The position numbers and the translations under genes are program-made. A stretch of 64,000 nt of DNA from Microcoleus sp. bin38.metabat.b11b12b14.051 (GTDB lineage: Bacteria; Cyanobacteriota; Cyanobacteriia; Cyanobacteriales; Microcoleaceae): assembly GCF_013299165.1 (NCBI RefSeq), contig NZ_JAAFKD010000010.1:124001-188000 (forward strand), read 5' to 3'. The notes under the pieces were generated by a model that was given only the letters and a program-made list of their open reading frames with translations, ran no database searches and was not told where the DNA came from. Below, piece after piece: positions 26,003 to 32,943 of the stretch (within the stretch, counting starts at the first letter, position 1; each line of letters starts with the position of its first letter).

Positions 26003-26872
26003 GTGAATATGTTTAACGCAACTGAACTGTTAATTAACGATTTTGTAAATCGGCTGATTGAAGGCTACCGCCACACCTACGGCGGGTTCAAATCAGACTA
26101 TGGCGAGATTATTGCTTGGGTAGCCGATATGGCTTTGGAAAATATTGCGAATAGCGATGCTCTTTACCACAATGTGGAACATACTATTTTAGTGACCTTA
26201 GTGGGACAAGAAATTCTGCGCGGGAAGCACATCCGCGAGGGCGGTGTTTCCTGCGAACATTGGCTGCACTTTCACATTGCTTTGTTGTGCCACGATATCG
26301 GATATGTTAAGGGCGTTTGTCTGCAAGATCGAACAGATTTGGGACTGTATGCGACGGGAATATGCAACACAAAAATAAACCTGCCTCGGGGAGCGACGGA
26401 TGCGGCTTTGACGCCTTATCATGTCGATCGCGGAAAAATGTTTGTTGAAGAGCGTTTTGGTAGTCACAGACTGATTGATGCCGACTTGGTGAAGCGGAAT
26501 ATTGAGTTAACTCGTTTCCCGGTTCCTCGGGATGAAGACTATCAAGATACTGTGAATTATCCGGGTTTGGTGCGGGCGGCGGATTTAATCGGTCAGTTGA
26601 GCGATCCGCGATATTTGCAAAAGGTTTCTGGGCTGTTTTACGAGTTTGAGGAGACTGGTCAAAATCAGGTTTTGGGGTATAAAAATCCGGCGGATTTGCG
26701 GGAGGGGTATCCTAAGTTTTATTGGAATGTGGTTTATCGGTATGTCAAGGATGCGATCGGCTATTTGGAACTGACGCAGCAGGGGAAACAAATTGTAGCT
26801 AATTTAAGTGCAAATGTGTTCCGGGTGGAGCATTCTGAGGGGGGAGTTGAGGAGGTGGCTGTAGTTCGTTAG
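26003..26872 (+). CDS. HD-domain metal-dependent phosphohydrolase-like protein (cyanobacterial Npun_R2479-type)
   Basis: A 289-residue protein with an HD-type metal site. The first histidine is in ALYHNVEHTILVTLVGQEIL (near residue 53) and the HD pair in HIALLCHDIGYVKGV (near 90-104). Further conserved blocks are DAALTPYHVDRGKMFVEERFG (133-153) and VRAADLIGQLSDPRYLQK (191-208). The enclosed histidine and aspartate pattern is that of HD phosphohydrolases, some of which act on nucleotides or cyclic nucleotides. The substrate is unknown. The reading matches a conserved cyanobacterial family. It stands alone, followed by repeats. Confidence 0.85.
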   Translation: MNMFNATELLINDFVNRLIEGYRHTYGGFKSDYGEIIAWVADMALENIANSDALYHNVEHTILVTLVGQEILRGKHIREGGVSCEHWLHFHIALLCHDIGYVKGVCLQDRTDLGLYATGICNTKINLPRGATDAALTPYHVDRGKMFVEERFGSHRLIDADLVKRNIELTRFPVPRDEDYQDTVNYPGLVRAADLIGQLSDPRYLQKVSGLFYEFEETGQNQVLGYKNPADLREGYPKFYWNVVYRYVKDAIGYLELTQQGKQIVANLSANVFRVEHSEGGVEEVAVVR

Positions 26873-26879
26873 GGTTTAG

Positions 26880-27335
26880 TTTCTTTCTCAGGCGGGGCAC
26901 CAGAAACCGGGTTTTTCAGTCAACTATCCCATCACAACTTTTAATCTCAGCAAAAAACCCGGTTTCTTTCCTAGGTGGAGCACCAGAAACCGGGTTTTTC
27001 AGTCAACTATCCCATCACAACTTTTAATCTCATACCAATTTTCAGAAGTCATGCAACAGTAGCCGTAGGGTGCGGATACATCGACAATCCTCAATCAAGA
27101 GCCACAATCTAATAGCGACGCACCTGCTCCATCGAGAGCTGAGGAATCAACCCTCCATTTCACTCCGCCTAACATTTTTGTCTTAAGCAAGCTTTTTTAT
27201 CAATGGTATCAGCAAAAAAACCCGGTTTCTTTCCTAGGCGGGACACCAGAAACCTGGTTTTTTAGTCAACTATCCCATCACAGCTTTTAATCTCAGCAAA
27301 AAACCCGGTTTCTTTGCTACGCGGGCGGCCAGAAA
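26880..27335. repeat. Cluster of AGAAACCGGGTTTTT-type repeats
   Basis: Three to four partial copies of a unit containing CCAGAAACCGGGTTTTTCAG, TCAACTATCCCATCACA and AAAAAACCCGGTTTCTTT occur near 26895, 26980 and 27205-27330. A different, GC-richer segment (GTAGGGTGCGGATACATCGAC near 27065) sits between them. That segment recurs in altered form at 39.3-39.7 kb. Adjacent arms in opposite orientation can form hairpins, and the last copy may act as terminator for the convergent genes. Confidence 0.82.
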
Positions 27336-27348
27336 TTCCTGATAAAAT

Positions 27349-28353
27349 TCAGCAATCCTGTTGATATTGAAGCGCTAAATCTTCGATGAGTTCAACCATT
27401 GCGCGAACCATCGGCATTTTAGTGAGAATTTCGACCCAATACCATTGTCCATTGGGATTTAGTTCGATAAAATAAAGCGTATCGTCATCGTCGCGAATGA
27501 TGTCGAATGCACCAAAATTCAAGCCGAAATCGTCAAGCATTTGATGGAGTTTGTTGAGGTAATCTATTGGTAGTTGATCGGGTACGTGAACGAGTTTGTC
27601 TGGTTCGGTGACGCGCCAATCCAAGGTCACATCTGCATCGTTGGTATGTTCGGCATCAATGCGACAAACAAAACTTTGCTTACCAATTAATGTAACGCGA
27701 TACTCTGCCTTCTTTTGAATGCGTTTTTGAATGAAAACAGGTGCCAATCGAATGCTCTCTCGAAATTCCTCAAGTGTTTCGACATCAATGGGGCGAGTAT
27801 AACAAGCATACTGCTTGTCATCATGTAAAAAACCAGAGTAGCGCATCGGTTTGACAATGCACTTTCCCTGTTCTGTCACAAAGTTGCAAGCAGCATCGTA
27901 GGAATTTGTGACGAGTGTAGGAGGGATAGTAATTCCCAGTTTTTTAGCAATTGGAATTTGGTTGATGCGATGGGATGGCAATCTAATTTTGTAGTAGTTA
28001 TTGACCCACTTTGCTTTAGGATATAAGCCAGACAGAGAGTACATCAAAGATTCTGTTTCTTCTTGACAATACTTGATTGCCCAAGCATCATCAACTTCGG
28101 GAAATACTTGATAGTCGTTAGGTTTGCGCCACCAGATTACGCCGATTTCTTGAGCTTCTTTCAAGGAGTCTTCAAAAGACAAAAAACTTTGACTGGGATT
28201 GCCAGAAGCTTGCCATGAGTAAGCATATTTGCTTTTTTGAATAAAACTTTCTGAATTCAATCGAATTGCTCGAATATTTGATTTTTGCAATTCGCTGATA
28301 ACGACATCCGCATGAATGTCAGTCTCGGATGTCACGATTAAAAGGTTATTCAT
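27349..28353 (-). CDS. ATP-grasp peptide maturase (graspetide ligase, MvdC/MvdD type)
   Basis: ATP-grasp ligases of this class form ester or amide bonds between side chains of a ribosomal precursor peptide. The protein starts MNNLLIVTSETDIHADVVI. It has the family VIWWRKP motif near 71-77, KCIVKPMRYSG near 165-175 and the ATP/metal site FIELNPNGQWYWVE near 295-308. The frame extends 69 bases upstream from a TTG, but the ATG at 28353 matches the family N-terminus and has AAAAGA upstream, so it is chosen (334 residues). It lies about 110 bases downstream of a short acidic-tailed peptide gene on the same strand, the expected precursor. A hairpin lies between them. No second ligase, acetyltransferase or transporter is next to it. 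Confidence 0.9.
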   Translation of the reverse strand: MNNLLIVTSETDIHADVVISELQKSNIRAIRLNSESFIQKSKYAYSWQASGNPSQSFLSFEDSLKEAQEIGVIWWRKPNDYQVFPEVDDAWAIKYCQEETESLMYSLSGLYPKAKWVNNYYKIRLPSHRINQIPIAKKLGITIPPTLVTNSYDAACNFVTEQGKCIVKPMRYSGFLHDDKQYACYTRPIDVETLEEFRESIRLAPVFIQKRIQKKAEYRVTLIGKQSFVCRIDAEHTNDADVTLDWRVTEPDKLVHVPDQLPIDYLNKLHQMLDDFGLNFGAFDIIRDDDDTLYFIELNPNGQWYWVEILTKMPMVRAMVELIEDLALQYQQDC

Positions 28354-28383
28354 AACTAAATCTTTTGAAATAATGTTGACAGT

Positions 28384-28420
28384 GAAAGACCTATAATGCA
28401 AAAATTCATACAGGTCTTTC
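28384..28420 (-). promoter_or_regulatory. Stem-loop between precursor and ligase genes
   Basis: A perfect 9-bp inverted repeat, GAAAGACCT (28384-28392) and AGGTCTTTC (28412-28420), with a 19-base loop. On the minus-strand transcript it follows a U-rich stretch and has no U-run after it. It is therefore more likely an RNA processing, stabilising or attenuation element than a full terminator. It could favour precursor over enzyme expression. Confidence 0.5.
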
Positions 28421-28465
28421 AAGAAAAAAAAGGGCTATCGAATTATCTGTTAGTAATTCAAAATT

Positions 28466-28696
28466 CTAGTCGTCCTCTTGTGTGTCGTCATCGGATGTTG
28501 TAAAAGGCCAAGTACCTTCTGTACTGGAAGAACTCCGAGTACACCAGGAGCCGCTCATGGAGGTGATGTTGGAGGTCTGTGTGCTGGGATCGTAGCTAAA
28601 CGTTTCCTCAACGGAGATGCCGTACTTGGGCAAGATGCTCAGGTGCATCATCAAAGGATTTGCTTTTTTGTCGAGAGCGAGTTGGGTAGTCGTCAT
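28466..28696 (-). CDS. Probable graspetide precursor peptide
   Basis: A 76-residue peptide directly upstream of the ATP-grasp ligase, same strand. The N-terminal part (residues 1-44) looks like a leader, with ANPLMMHLSILPKYGISVEE. The C-terminal part is Ser/Thr-rich (T45, S46, S48, S50, T53, S55-S58, T59, T62, T66, T67, S68). It ends in an acidic cluster (D69, D70, D71, E74, D75, D76), with E60 and a single Cys52. Ser/Thr donors followed by Asp/Glu acceptors is the hallmark of omega-ester graspetides. The microviridin core TxRxPSDxDE is not present. The ATG at 28696 has only a weak ribosome-binding sequence. The modified product and its target are unknown. Confidence 0.8.
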   Translation of the reverse strand: MTTTQLALDKKANPLMMHLSILPKYGISVEETFSYDPSTQTSNITSMSGSWCTRSSSSTEGTWPFTTSDDDTQEDD

Positions 28697-28756
28697 AAGT
28701 TAGTTTCTTTGAGCGATTGTTTCACTTTCACAATGCTACAGTTGAATAATAAATTT

Positions 28757-28791
28757 GTATAGTCGAAAAAGGTCGGATAAAGTCGTATAAT
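28757..28791 (-). promoter_or_regulatory. Phased CGAC repeats and candidate promoters between precursor and divergent regulator
   Basis: On the minus strand TACGAC, TCCGAC and TTCGAC recur at exactly 10-bp steps (plus-strand GTCG at 28762, 28772 and 28782). They end at a TATACA hexamer, a candidate -10 for the precursor gene. On the plus strand a TATAAT at 28786-28791 could serve the divergent gene at 28896. Another AGTCGGA occurs at 28842. Helically phased direct repeats next to a -10 suggest an activator or repressor operator. Confidence 0.45.
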
Positions 28792-28895
28792 ATAAAAAGT
28801 TTTGATAAAGCTTTAATCGTTTTTGTATTCAAGGCGAAAATAGTCGGATCTAGACGGTTTTAGTTCGATCGCTCGGATATTGTGAGGAGGCGCGG

Positions 28896-29378
28896 GTGAA
28901 CGTTAAGGAAGCACTGGCTTTTGCGGATGAAGTTGTCTTTGCGAAAACTGGCAAGCATTTAGATGATATGCAAGTTGGTGTGATTGAGGGCGTTTTGAAG
29001 CGGCAAAAGTACGGCGATATTGCCCAAGCGCTGAATTGTACTGAGGGTTATGCTAAAGATGTGGGCTACGAGCTATGGCAGTTGTTCTCTGATTCTTTTG
29101 GAGAAGAGGTTAATAAGTTAAATTTGCGATCGGCGTTGATTCGGAAGTCGATGATTAGCAATGTTACTGGCGGCGTTATTAATGGCCATCATAATGTAAT
29201 CGGCTCGGTGAATATCTGCAAGTCATCTGAAGAGTCGCCTGAGTTTTTGCGGGGAAAGCAGCAGGCGAAAATTGAGGCGATTGCTCGCTTGCAAGCAATA
29301 GGATTGAGTGATGAGCAAATCGTGCAATGTTTGGATCTGACGCTAGAAGAGATTCGACAAGTCGATTTGACAGAATAA
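28896..29378 (+). CDS. vMAP-type helix-turn-helix protein, possible regulator
   Basis: A 160-residue protein. Residues 1-85 (MNVKEALAFADEVVFAKTGKHLDDMQVGVIEGVLKRQKYGDIAQAL) resemble the HTH domain found at the N-terminus of vWA-MoxR-associated and NACHT proteins in cyanobacteria. Here it is not fused to an effector. A Gly/Asn-rich linker (TGGVINGHHNVIGSVN) leads to a second short helical unit (ARLQAIGLSDEQIVQCLDLTLEEIRQV) like the tail of Rpn-type proteins. GTG start with an excellent GAGGAGG five bases upstream. It is divergent from the graspetide pair and shares its promoter region, so a regulatory role there is plausible but inferred. Confidence 0.72.
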   Translation: MNVKEALAFADEVVFAKTGKHLDDMQVGVIEGVLKRQKYGDIAQALNCTEGYAKDVGYELWQLFSDSFGEEVNKLNLRSALIRKSMISNVTGGVINGHHNVIGSVNICKSSEESPEFLRGKQQAKIEAIARLQAIGLSDEQIVQCLDLTLEEIRQVDLTE

Positions 29379-29785: not shown

Positions 29786-30760
29786 ATGAGATTCATTAAC
29801 CCCAAAACCGACTTTGCATTCAAAAAGATTTTCGGTTCTAACGAAAGCAAACCAATTTTAATCAGCTTTCTGAATGCCATGATTTATCATGGAAATTCCA
29901 CGATCACCGACTTAGAAATTATCGATCCGTATTTACCATCCAAAGTTGCTTATCTCAAAGATTCTTACCTGGATGTTCAAGCAAAACTTGCAGGAGGCCA
30001 AATTGTAATTATTGAGATGCAAGTTTTAAATGTGGCATCTTTTGCAAAACGAGTTGTATACAATACGGCAAAAGCTTACTCAACTCAACTTTTCCGCGGT
30101 CAAGGATACTCTAAATTAAAATCCGTAATTGCTTTGACAATTACTGACTTTGAAATGTTTGACCATGACCAAGAAGTAATTTCTCACTTTTTGTTCAAGG
30201 AGAAAGAACGTTTATTTGAGTATCCCGATCCAGGAATGGAAATGATATTTATTGAATTGCCGAAATTCAACAAACAATTGGATGAGTTGGCAACTTTGAC
30301 TGATAAGTGGGTTTATTTTATGAAAAACGCTCCTAGTTTGGAAGTAGTGCCGTCAACAATGGAGATTGTCTCGGAAATTCAGCAAGCTTTTGCGATTGCT
30401 AATGAAACTAACTTGAATGCCCAAGAGTTGAAAGATTTAGAAGATCGCGAGAGGTATATTCTGGATCAGCAAGGTGTCTTGCTCAAGGGTATTGAAGAAG
30501 GACTTGCACAAGGAATTCAGCAAGGACTCGCACAAGGCAAACAAGAAGGACTCGCACAAGGCAAACAAGAAGGCAGAGAAGAAGGCAGAGAAGAAGGCAA
30601 ACAAGAAGGCAAACAAGAAGGCAGAGAAGAAGGACTCGCGCTAGGAATGCGAGAAAAAGCTCTCGAAATTGCTAGGCAACTTCTCAATGTCCTTGACAAT
30701 CAAACTATCAGTCAAACTACTGGTTTGAGCGTTGAAGATATCCAAAATTTGCGGGAGTAA
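29786..30760 (+). CDS. Rpn-family recombination-promoting nuclease / putative transposase
   Basis: A 324-residue member of the Rpn (PD-(D/E)XK transposase-like) family. MRFINPKTDFAFKKIFGSNESKPILISFLNAMI opens the protein. The catalytic core DSYLDVQAKLAGGQIVIIEMQ (residues 51-71) supplies the Asp and the E-x-Q variant typical of this family. The E. coli relatives are DNA endonucleases that promote recA-independent recombination. The C-terminus (about 235-295) is a low-complexity run of QGLAQGKQEG and REEGREEGKQEG repeats encoded by near-identical 12-base units. A short helical tail like that of the 28896 protein follows. ATG start. Repeats follow directly downstream. Confidence 0.88.
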   Translation: MRFINPKTDFAFKKIFGSNESKPILISFLNAMIYHGNSTITDLEIIDPYLPSKVAYLKDSYLDVQAKLAGGQIVIIEMQVLNVASFAKRVVYNTAKAYSTQLFRGQGYSKLKSVIALTITDFEMFDHDQEVISHFLFKEKERLFEYPDPGMEMIFIELPKFNKQLDELATLTDKWVYFMKNAPSLEVVPSTMEIVSEIQQAFAIANETNLNAQELKDLEDRERYILDQQGVLLKGIEEGLAQGIQQGLAQGKQEGLAQGKQEGREEGREEGKQEGKQEGREEGLALGMREKALEIARQLLNVLDNQTISQTTGLSVEDIQNLRE

Positions 30761-31017: not shown

Positions 31018-32943
31018 ATGACATCAGTCACTCCGAATCAAACTTCATCTCAATACGAAACTACCGAACCTGAAGAAAAAATTGAGTCTCTGGTACAAGA
31101 AGTTAAGCCAGAAAGCGAACTCGATTTAGAATTTCTGTACACCAGAGACATTGAATTCCGCCAAGAAACAATTTATTTCATTGTAGTCGATCGCTTCCAT
31201 GATGGCGATCCCACAAATAACGAAGGCCCAAACCCTGAACTTTACGATCCTGAAGGCAAAAACTGGGGCAAATATTGGGGCGGCGACTTGCAGGGAGTGA
31301 TCGACAAACTCGATTACTTAAAAGATATGGGTGTTACCGCAGTATGGCTGACTCCGCTTTTTGAGCAAGTAGAGGCATTATTTGTTGAACAAGCTGCGAT
31401 TCACGGCTACTGGACAAAGGATTTTAAGCGACTAAATCCCCGGTTTATTGCCAAAGGTGACAATCCTTCTGTCAACCAAACACAAGAAACTAAAGATACT
31501 GTCTTTGACAGATTAGTAGACGAGTTGCACCAGCGAAAAATGAAACTGGTGCTGGATATTGTCTGCAATCACAGCAATCCGGATTTTAGCGGTAAAAAAG
31601 GGGAACTCTACGATGATGGCGTCAAGATAGCTGACTTTAATGATGATCGAGATGACTGGTATCACCATTACGGGGAAGTTACAAACTGGGAAGATGAATG
31701 GCAAGTCCAAAACTGCGAATTGTCTGGTTTAGCGACGTTCAATGAAAATAATACTGAATACCGCCTTTACATTAAATCTGCAATTAAACAGTGGCTGGAC
31801 AGAGGTGTTGATGCTTTGCGGGTTGATACTGTTAAGCATATGCCGATCTGGTTTTGGCAGGAATTTAATGCTGACATTTTAACGCACAGACCTGATGTTT
31901 TCATTTTAGGGGAATGGATTTACAGTGACCCGAGGAACGATCGCTCTGTGGAGTTTGCTAATGAGTCGGGGATGACTATTTTAGATTTTGGTCTGTGCGT
32001 GGCGATTCGAGAAGCTTTGGGATCTGGTGCTGAAGCGGGATTTCAGTTAATTCAGGATGTTCTGGATTTGGATCACCGCTATTACGGGGCGACAGAGTTG
32101 ATTACTTTTATTGACAACCACGATATGCCGCGGTTTCAGTCCTTGAATGCCGATCGACAAATGCTGCAATTGGCGATATGTTTAATGATGACGACTCGCG
32201 GCATTCCTTGTCTTTATTACGGTACTGAACAGTATTTGCACGATGATACTGAAGGGGGAAATGACCCTTACAACCGCCCGATGATGGAAAAGTGGGATAC
32301 TGATTCGCCGATTTATCGAGATGTGCGGTTGCTGTCTGGATTGCGGCGGCTGAATCCTGCTATTTCGATGGGGAGTCAGTGGCAAAAATATCTAACTCCT
32401 GATGTTTATTGTTACGTGCGCCGCTATCGGGATTCTGTGGTGTTTGTAGCGATGAATCGCGGCAATGCTGTGAAAGTTGAAGCGGTTGATACTGAGCTAC
32501 CGGATGGAGAGCATACGGAGGTTTTGTCGCGCCGCAAGTTTGATGTTAAAGATGGGATGCTGTACAATTTAGAGCTGGGCGATCGGGAAATAATGATTTT
32601 TAGCCGCGTAGGAGAGCGAGTTAAGGCTAAAACTATTGTGCGGGCCCAGCTTAACAGTGTTAAAAGTCAGCCTGGGGAAAGAATTGTGGTGATTGGAGAT
32701 TGTCCGGAATTAGGGAATTGGGATATTAGTAAGGGTTACGCGCTGGAGTATATCAATACTAATACTTGGTTTGGGGAAATTCCTTTTAATGAAAGTGCGG
32801 GGAAGTTGATTTCTTATAAGTATGCGCTGCTGCGGGAAGGAATGTCGCCGCTGCGAGAAAATTTGGTTTGTCGCCGCTGGGTTTTGGCTTCGGAAGGGAC
32901 TGTAAAATGGCGGGATCAGTGGGCGAGCGGACGTGAGTCTTGA
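31018..32943 (+). CDS. GH13 alpha-amylase-family enzyme with C-terminal CBM20-like domain
   Basis: A 641-residue glycoside hydrolase acting on alpha-glucans such as glycogen or maltodextrins. The TIM barrel runs from FIVVDRFHDGDPTNN (residue 51) to about 450. Its GH13 regions are visible: LVLDIVCNHS (near 179), ALRVDTVKHMP with the nucleophile Asp (near 266), LGEW with the acid/base Glu (near 299) and FIDNHDMPRF with the third Asp (near 364). The tail (IVRAQLNSVKSQPGERIVVIGDCPELGNWD, 540-570) is a starch-binding CBM20-type domain. No signal peptide is seen, so it is probably cytosolic. Similar layouts occur in cyclomaltodextrin glucanotransferase-like enzymes. Exact specificity is unknown. 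Confidence 0.9.
   Translation: MTSVTPNQTSSQYETTEPEEKIESLVQEVKPESELDLEFLYTRDIEFRQETIYFIVVDRFHDGDPTNNEGPNPELYDPEGKNWGKYWGGDLQGVIDKLDYLKDMGVTAVWLTPLFEQVEALFVEQAAIHGYWTKDFKRLNPRFIAKGDNPSVNQTQETKDTVFDRLVDELHQRKMKLVLDIVCNHSNPDFSGKKGELYDDGVKIADFNDDRDDWYHHYGEVTNWEDEWQVQNCELSGLATFNENNTEYRLYIKSAIKQWLDRGVDALRVDTVKHMPIWFWQEFNADILTHRPDVFILGEWIYSDPRNDRSVEFANESGMTILDFGLCVAIREALGSGAEAGFQLIQDVLDLDHRYYGATELITFIDNHDMPRFQSLNADRQMLQLAICLMMTTRGIPCLYYGTEQYLHDDTEGGNDPYNRPMMEKWDTDSPIYRDVRLLSGLRRLNPAISMGSQWQKYLTPDVYCYVRRYRDSVVFVAMNRGNAVKVEAVDTELPDGEHTEVLSRRKFDVKDGMLYNLELGDREIMIFSRVGERVKAKTIVRAQLNSVKSQPGERIVVIGDCPELGNWDISKGYALEYINTNTWFGEIPFNESAGKLISYKYALLREGMSPLRENLVCRRWVLASEGTVKWRDQWASGRES

Follow-up and report, generated by a model that had tools for sequence, protein, structure and literature searches.

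A 64,000-nucleotide stretch of the genome of Microcoleus sp. bin38.metabat.b11b12b14.051 (contig NZ_JAAFKD010000010.1, positions 124,001 to 188,000; a genome of 7.07 Mb), hereafter the window, encodes a compact cassette of three genes: a 76-residue peptide, an ATP-grasp ligase downstream of it on the minus strand and, divergent from this pair, a helix-turn-helix (HTH) protein. Judged from gene content and conservation, the cassette very probably makes a graspetide, a ribosomally synthesized and post-translationally modified peptide (RiPP) in which the ligase would link side chains of the precursor. We also consider it probable, with a good deal less assurance, that the pair forms an autoregulated operon controlled by the divergent HTH protein. 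This predicted link between regulator and operator is the more surprising part of the finding.

An earlier note, made from the window's letters alone, had described a 76-residue peptide with a Ser/Thr-rich segment (T45-T67) and acidic residues (D69-D71, E74, D75, D76), directly upstream of an MvdC/MvdD-like ATP-grasp ligase bearing ELNPNGQWYW. The translated open reading frame (ORF) is exactly that peptide with all of these residues, and the ligase that follows carries the motif. The note had also found the locus to lack the microviridin core TxRxPSDxDE, a second ligase, an acetyltransferase and a transporter; we likewise recognized no such motif, and none of these genes among the ORFs listed nearby.

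A conserved precursor and a distinct ligase

Selection on the precursor is strongest on PLMMHLSI, its leader helix, and on DDDxQEDD, its acidic tail. Across 12 intact precursors from 11 loci, the ratio of nonsynonymous to synonymous polymorphism (pN/pS) is 0.08 in the leader helix with PLMMH (14 codons) and 0.06 in the tail (eight codons). It is 0.26 over a segment of 12 codons closing with QTSN and 0.42 for the 16-codon arm that precedes the loop. Between arm and tail lies a loop of 2 to 9 residues, so variable that it could not be aligned. PLMMH is found in the window and in all 12 other loci; S48, S50, S57, S/T58, D69, D71, Q73, E74, D75 and D76 are invariant in all 12 intact precursors, and D70 is replaced by Ser in L052. 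Because arm and tail are fixed and the loop is free, the core suggests a stapled stem-loop, by analogy with the fuscimiditide synthetase ThfB, which according to the available text of PMC12291112 accepts loop substitutions and a wide range of loop lengths, up to 72 residues. The only cysteine of the precursor, C52, was considered as a part of the core and rejected: it is Ser in two of the 12 intact precursors (G354 and the first G039 copy), and the earlier proposal that a lone cysteine belongs to an unusual core falls with it.

The ligase is listed with a TTG start at 28422, which would give 357 amino acids. Its conservation begins at the ATG at 28353 (334 amino acids, MNNLLIV...), so we take the spacer between precursor and ligase to be 112 bp. 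Among NCBIfam models the ligase scores 210.1 bits with TIGR04187, 174 with TIGR04185 (MvdC; cut-off 425), 161 with TIGR04184 (MvdD; cut-off 475) and 88 with TIGR04192, and only 18-21 bits with the GAK, MptN and RimK models; none of the first four scores reaches its curated cut-off. These scores speak against a kinship with ATP-grasp enzymes that do not act on peptides, which the earlier note had named as a refuting outcome. The MvdD pre-ATP-grasp domain (Pfam PF21068) is present at 35 bits against a cut-off of 27, and the closest solved structures, with E from 3e-35 to 1e-24, are AMdnB, CdnC, 9bou and two entries named 'ATP grasp ligase', 5ig8 and 5ig9, which we take to be MdnB and MdnC. In a tree of 27 rows containing ten of the 13 orthologues, for which the program warned of long branches, the ten ligases group together (100/100) on a long branch, and the G213 ligase is their sister (95/93). 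A separate clade (99/99), to which none of the ten belongs, unites Nostoc MvdC and MvdD, 5ig8, 5ig9, AMdnB and CdnC. A weak grouping (81/79) places the ten with three ligases from the sibling loci described below, and a still weaker split (73/56) joins that set to three tgmB proteins, 9bou and a Croceicoccus ligase. Because of the long-branch warning, we regard only the distinctness of the ten from the microviridin clade, as far as sequences can tell, as firm.

The locus thus has an ATP-grasp ligase of the MvdC/MvdD superfamily adjacent to a precursor with a conserved leader, conserved Ser/Thr donors and conserved Asp/Glu acceptors. The leader also carries, as P14-L15-M16-M17-H18-L19, the motif Phhx(1,2)h that the available text of PMC8939145 reports for about half of known graspetide precursors. 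Like the microviridins and chryseoviridin (CdnC), the locus has a ligase of this superfamily with the MvdD pre-ATP-grasp domain and a leader helix that starts with proline and hydrophobic residues, and the microviridins are cyanobacterial too. Membership among them was nevertheless rejected: TxRxPSDxDE is absent, as is PFFARFL (the microviridin leader motif in the available text of PMC8939145), the single ligase scores below the MvdC and MvdD cut-offs and falls outside their clade, and no transporter was recognized.

In leader motif and layout the locus resembles tgmA/tgmB of actinomycetes, in which a single TIGR04187-like ligase likewise stands by a precursor whose Ser/Thr stretch is followed by an acidic end. 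The precursor matches GRASP_targ (NCBIfam TIGR04186) over residues 32-75 (E 0.0015) with 18.6 bits against a curated cut-off of 25; the corresponding figures for the ligase and TIGR04187 are 210.1 and 350 bits. In an alignment of 19 precursors that includes four siblings and three Streptomyces tgmA sequences, P14 and Q40 are common to all rows. Three siblings and two tgmA sequences have D/N-P-x-T-Q-T, after which a Ser/Thr stretch and then an acidic end again come. GRASP_targ matches 11 of these 19 at E<=1, a count for the alignment as a whole; scanned singly, two of three siblings have no match. The window type differs from tgmA/tgmB in its own PLMMHLSI helix, its DDDxQEDD tail, its long ligase branch and the lack of a tgmC methyltransferase. 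Fuscimiditide and the graspimiditides are presumably kin of tgmA/tgmB. No isoaspartyl methyltransferase of the graspimiditide type was recognized among the ORFs, partly scanned with Pfam, of the window and three orthologous loci. The predicted stem-loop shares with fuscimiditide (ThfA/ThfB) N-terminal donors, C-terminal acceptors and a tolerant loop, as given in the available text of PMC12291112; it differs in its loop of 2-9 residues and the lack of a recognized methyltransferase, and its topology is here a prediction. Of the earlier suggestion of a possibly new graspetide class, the non-microviridin core and the separate ligase clade, outside the microviridin/chryseoviridin clade, hold up; the novelty is tempered by a leader motif and layout that resemble TIGR04186/TIGR04187.

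Distribution, decay and surroundings of the cassette

Precursor and ligase occur in the same order in all 13 distinct cyanobacterial loci that we found, and a divergent HTH ORF accompanies them in 12 of 12 loci where this can be assessed (the contig of L046 ends before it). When 386 genomes of the phylum were searched with the whole precursor, E fell below 1e-19 in five genomes, the window's own included, for six precursors. The remaining listed matches score near chance, though a few are sibling loci. A scan of genome contigs for PLMMH- and DDDxQED-type motifs gave 11 loci, three of them identical with the loci of G354, G039 and G045; the window and G066 complete the 13. The hosts that can be named are Microcoleus, other Oscillatoriales, Phormidium willei and a Limnothrix, and G039 carries two precursors in tandem. 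The peptide was never met without its ATP-grasp neighbor; its conserved presence without one is what the earlier note had named as a refutation.

Three of the 13 loci are damaged, by an in-frame stop in the precursor (L044), a truncated core (L050) or a deletion in the ligase (L046). Ligase remnants are found in G099 (L060), G203 (L062) and G033 (L079), the first two still beside the genes that flank the window locus. As read from these sequences, the remnants mark repeated loss of the cassette. In all six decayed copies the damage falls in the core, precursor or ligase, which we count in favor of a graspetide product.

The flanks of the cassette change from host to host. In the window they comprise an ORF without a Pfam match (26003-26872), a PD-(D/E)XK nuclease-family transposase (29786-30760) and an alpha-amylase (31018-32943), the latter two by Pfam. 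In G066 they are shikimate dehydrogenase and type II secretion-type genes, and in Limnothrix a guanylate cyclase and a Na/H exchanger. Since these neighbors differ, HTH gene, precursor and ligase are, from their arrangement, the unit (Table 1). Neither plasmids (no match to the precursor at E<=10) nor viral contigs (98 motif-matching stretches, none confirmed) yielded a home for it. Separately, 3' of the ligase at 26900-27330, the window holds several alike repeat copies around AAAAAACCCGGTTTCTTTCCTAGG and GTCAACTATCCCATCAC, noted by eye.

Table 1. Features of the cassette, in window coordinates
Feature	Position	Strand	Basis
Graspetide precursor peptide (predicted), 76 amino acids	28466..28696	-	Orthologues in 12 further loci; tail pN/pS 0.06
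Leader part, residues 1-29, with Phhx(1,2)h-type motif P14-L15-M16-M17-H18-L19; predicted ligase-binding helix	28610..28696	-	Conservation, pN/pS 0.08
Second leader motif YDPSTQTSN, residues 35-43	28568..28594	-	Similar in most siblings and 2/3 Streptomyces tgmA precursors
Core region, residues 44-76: Ser/Thr arm 44-59, hypervariable loop 60-68, acidic tail DDDxQEDD 69-76	28469..28567	-	
ATP-grasp graspetide synthetase (predicted), 334 amino acids	27349..28353	-	Homology, tree
Predicted RNA hairpin in precursor-ligase spacer, perfect 10-bp inverted repeat TGAAAGACCT, 19-nt gap	28383..28421	-	
10-bp-phased direct repeats CGACTTTATC CGACCTTTTT CGACTATACA, predicted operator	28756..28785	-	
Second cluster of the same repeat ATCCGACTATTTTCGCCTTGAA	28828..28849	-	
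Divergent helix-turn-helix protein, 160 amino acids, predicted cassette autoregulator	28896..29378	+	Such an ORF in 12/12 loci whose contig extends there

The putative divergent regulator, the phased repeats and related loci

The 199-bp region shared by the two divergent transcription units contains two clusters of a CGACT-like pentamer at an exact spacing of 10 bp. The stretch covered by the earlier note, which ran to 28860, includes this repeat array and stops short of the start of the divergent gene at 28896, which the note does not mention. The clusters align across 11 loci. Among these are Phormidium willei and L053, where the remainder of the region is poorly alignable. A 26-base pattern of the larger cluster recurs in nine of 96 loci, equal to six distinct cassette copies with Limnothrix among them; the window itself deviates from it. 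Allowing one mismatch, a 16-base pattern has five matches in the window's genome: the window, C43:41038, C44:15017 and two others. Since the reversed pattern gives seven, it is the position of the matches and not their number that counts, and C43:41038 and C44:15017 each lie less than 60 bp from another HTH-family gene.

That genome encodes 19 genes with the same N-terminal HTH (L097-L115), some short (open frames of about 170-215 amino acids) and some longer (about 380-830). We scored three pentamer copies over 205 bp upstream of such genes, with a threshold of 13 of 15 and periods from 6 to 15. The threshold was reached at period 10 by ten of the 19 promoters and at any other period by none. 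Among 26 HTH-family promoters of other genomes, seven reached it at period 10, one at period 7 and none otherwise. None of 44 control promoters did so at period 10 (Fisher P 7e-7 for the own genome, 5e-4 for the others); these controls are the upstream stretches of mechanically picked ORFs of at least 150 amino acids from the window and L041, not a genome-wide sample. The 26 genes come from 28 loci among the matches listed, with L138 and L139 omitted, and include one orthologue of the window gene (L116) and one sibling locus (L117). Attention was drawn to the motif first by the window family and next by siblings, L098 among them, and those promoters are not independent. Taken singly against shuffled sequences, the phasing in L053 (P 0.073) and G131 (P 0.116) is not significant, and the promoter of G306, whose regulator has a different HTH, shows none (P 0.69). 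The pentamer sequence varies among paralogues. We infer from the 10-bp phasing that HTH subunits may bind cooperatively along one helix face, making the array a predicted operator.

Ten divergent orthologues of the HTH protein are 54-94% identical to it. AlphaFold models its N-terminal part with confidence (predicted local distance difference test, pLDDT, of 84-95 in residues 1-80), followed by a helical C-terminal part with an uncertain link to it, and Pfam gives the short HTH proteins sub-threshold HTH matches only. We found no description of this family in the libraries searched. Some of the paralogues adjoin other small ORFs. One of these, at L107 861-1250 and divergent from an HTH-family gene, has a signal-peptide-like start and a bacteriocin-like LSQVEGEW by eye, and is perhaps another peptide beside the family.

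Five sibling loci (G000:C7, G354:C62, G306, G131 and G213) resemble the window in having a divergent HTH regulator, a small precursor with an acidic end and an adjacent ATP-grasp ligase. In all five the regulator is larger than the window's and has nucleoside triphosphatase (NTPase)-like sequence. The HTH is related to the window's in four of the five; the first 85 residues of the window protein share 33-44% identity with the N-terminal parts of the G000:C7, G131 and G213 regulators. NB-ARC and AAA_14 exceed the Pfam cut-offs in the G000:C7 regulator, NTPase matches fall below them in those of G131 and G306, and the NTPase part was read by eye in those of G213 and G354:C62. The regulator of G306 instead carries a LuxR-type GerE HTH and tetratricopeptide repeats. 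We presume that NTPases of the NB-ARC type are those called STAND. A YDPxTQTSN-type motif is found in four of the five sibling precursors, as in the window. In place of the SWCxxxSST...DDDxQEDD of the window type, four of the five have a core in which GTSLTY precedes an end that contains DD. The ligases of G000:C7, G306, G131 and G213 are 26-34% identical. G000:C7 is a second graspetide locus in the window's own genome (142182-143734; L041 8183-9735). There, a 458-residue HTH-NTPase diverges from a TIGR04187-like ligase and a precursor with YDPETQTSNIPIYAGTSLTY...DDSEQSDT.

Two further small ORFs were noted by ATP-grasp genes. In G086, a 2-Mb genome of the same phylum, an ORF without a Pfam match (L145 3295-3585) lies 5' of a single ATP-grasp gene and contains two DTMTxxxSDxxD(D/E)-type repeats, possibly making it a multi-core graspetide precursor. 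In G306, a 75-residue ORF ending in TTPQTTPTKEGGAIRDNYSDSDPAIEG precedes an ATP-grasp ORF (L146, 2270-2497 and 2623-3570) and is a possible graspetide precursor.

Between precursor and ligase, a stem lies some 40 nt past the precursor stop in all 12 folded spacers (11 loci, G039 twice; L044 and L050 not included). Nine have a perfect inverted repeat of 10-14 bp, and the stems of L046, L051 and G045 are imperfect. The stem sequences differ among the Microcoleus, Phormidium and Limnothrix types; when 11 trimmed sequences are aligned, three of eight consensus pairs show changes on both sides, and the window spacer folds with z = -3.97. Such a hairpin may, as a tentative suggestion, keep the precursor message above that of the ligase, through RNA stability or partial termination.

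Proposed mechanism, alternatives and meaning

In the mechanism that we propose, the ligase would bind the PLMMHLSI helix of the leader, and probably the YDPxTQTSN motif too, and phosphorylate side-chain carboxylates of the DDDxQEDD tail. Hydroxyls of the SGSWCxxxSST arm would then attack to form two or more omega-ester rings, stapling arm to tail around the tolerant loop; ester formation and the number and pairing of the rings are predictions of the model. The HTH protein would bind the phased repeats, several subunits abreast on one face of the DNA, and set transcription of its own gene and of the divergent precursor-ligase operon, with operator binding and the direction of regulation equally predicted. 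Past the precursor stop, the hairpin would keep precursor message in excess. No protease, exporter or methyltransferase was recognized as traveling with the cassette among flanking ORFs that were partly scanned with Pfam, so we assume either a protease and an exporter acting in trans or an intracellular role for the product.

Several points weigh against this interpretation. The graspetide assignment is a prediction from the genes; both proteins score below the curated cut-offs of their nearest models, and no protease or exporter was recognized in the locus. The AlphaFold model of the ligase is poor (pLDDT 44, from eight close sequences), and Foldseek with the HTH model returned 420 weak matches, none at E<=0.001, the top 50 including sigma-factor, KorA- and GerE-like structures. 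The invariance of PLMMH and DDD[QTS]QED and the low pN/pS there are in part a matter of ascertainment, as the contig scan used these motifs; the six precursors of five genomes obtained by the motif-free whole-protein search also contain both. Nine of 19 HTH-family promoters in the own genome and 19 of 26 in others are below the repeat threshold. The hairpin has no U-run, which leaves the precursor excess a proposal.

The ligase could use the peptide otherwise, adding an amino acid to it or joining the acidic tail to a protein or amine in the manner of RimK. RimK adds glutamates at acidic C-termini, just the sort of site that the tail offers, and matches of the RimK/MptN/LysX type exist at 18-21 bits for the window ligase and up to 37 bits for sibling ligases. 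Set against the 161-210 bits of the RiPP maturase models these are slight. In the arm, S48, S50, S57 and S/T58 vary no more than the acids do, a constancy that ligation of the tail would not require; we hold such an activity to be very unlikely. Unlikelier still is that the small acidic peptide and an HTH protein bound by it make up a toxin-antitoxin or regulator-peptide pair, to which the ligase would be incidental. The constant adjacency of the HTH gene, and the small ORFs beside some of its paralogues, would fit such a pair, yet the ligase is missing from none of the 13 loci, and 19 HTH genes against just two full-length maturase-like ligases in the window's genome mark the HTH protein as the shared, general part.

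A graspetide product granted, the core may be nothing new and the cassette an ordinary member of a group already numbered, a prospect that we put somewhat below even. In their available text, the surveys PMC13097080 and PMC8939145 count 19 RODEO groups beyond an earlier 24, with partner proteins, and 174 precursor families, some groups consisting of precursor and synthetase alone. Against this, the main text of PMC8939145 names no Microcoleus, Oscillatoria, Limnothrix or Phormidium, and that of PMC13097080 no Microcoleus. In its available text, PMC8939145 counts neighbors in same-strand directons, so a divergent regulator would escape it. NB-ARC is absent from PMC8939145, where 'stand' occurs once, as a verb; both terms are absent from PMC13097080, and 'ATP-grasp' is absent from the main text of PMC7159879, PMC8195603 and PMC10907252. 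Among titles and the beginnings of abstracts, a literature search met no link between graspetides and STAND proteins and no phased repeats at such genes.

We favor a graspetide cassette under the predicted control of its divergent HTH protein. A further, speculative and rather improbable extension is that the modified peptide is the ligand of this protein, and of the larger, STAND-like HTH-NTPase regulators of the siblings, with graspetides serving as self-signals. If so, they would act as signals within the cell or the population instead of inhibiting proteases, and the pentamer would be a code specific to each regulator paralogue. What is new is the link of graspetides to a widespread HTH family with a concrete predicted operator, pentamers every 10 bp. 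The cassette also represents a compact lineage of cyanobacterial graspetides; with its layout of arm, loop and tail, the core would amount to a natural library of loops on a constant stem, of use in engineering macrocycles. Through assays of regulator, operator and ligand, the role of such graspetides becomes testable.

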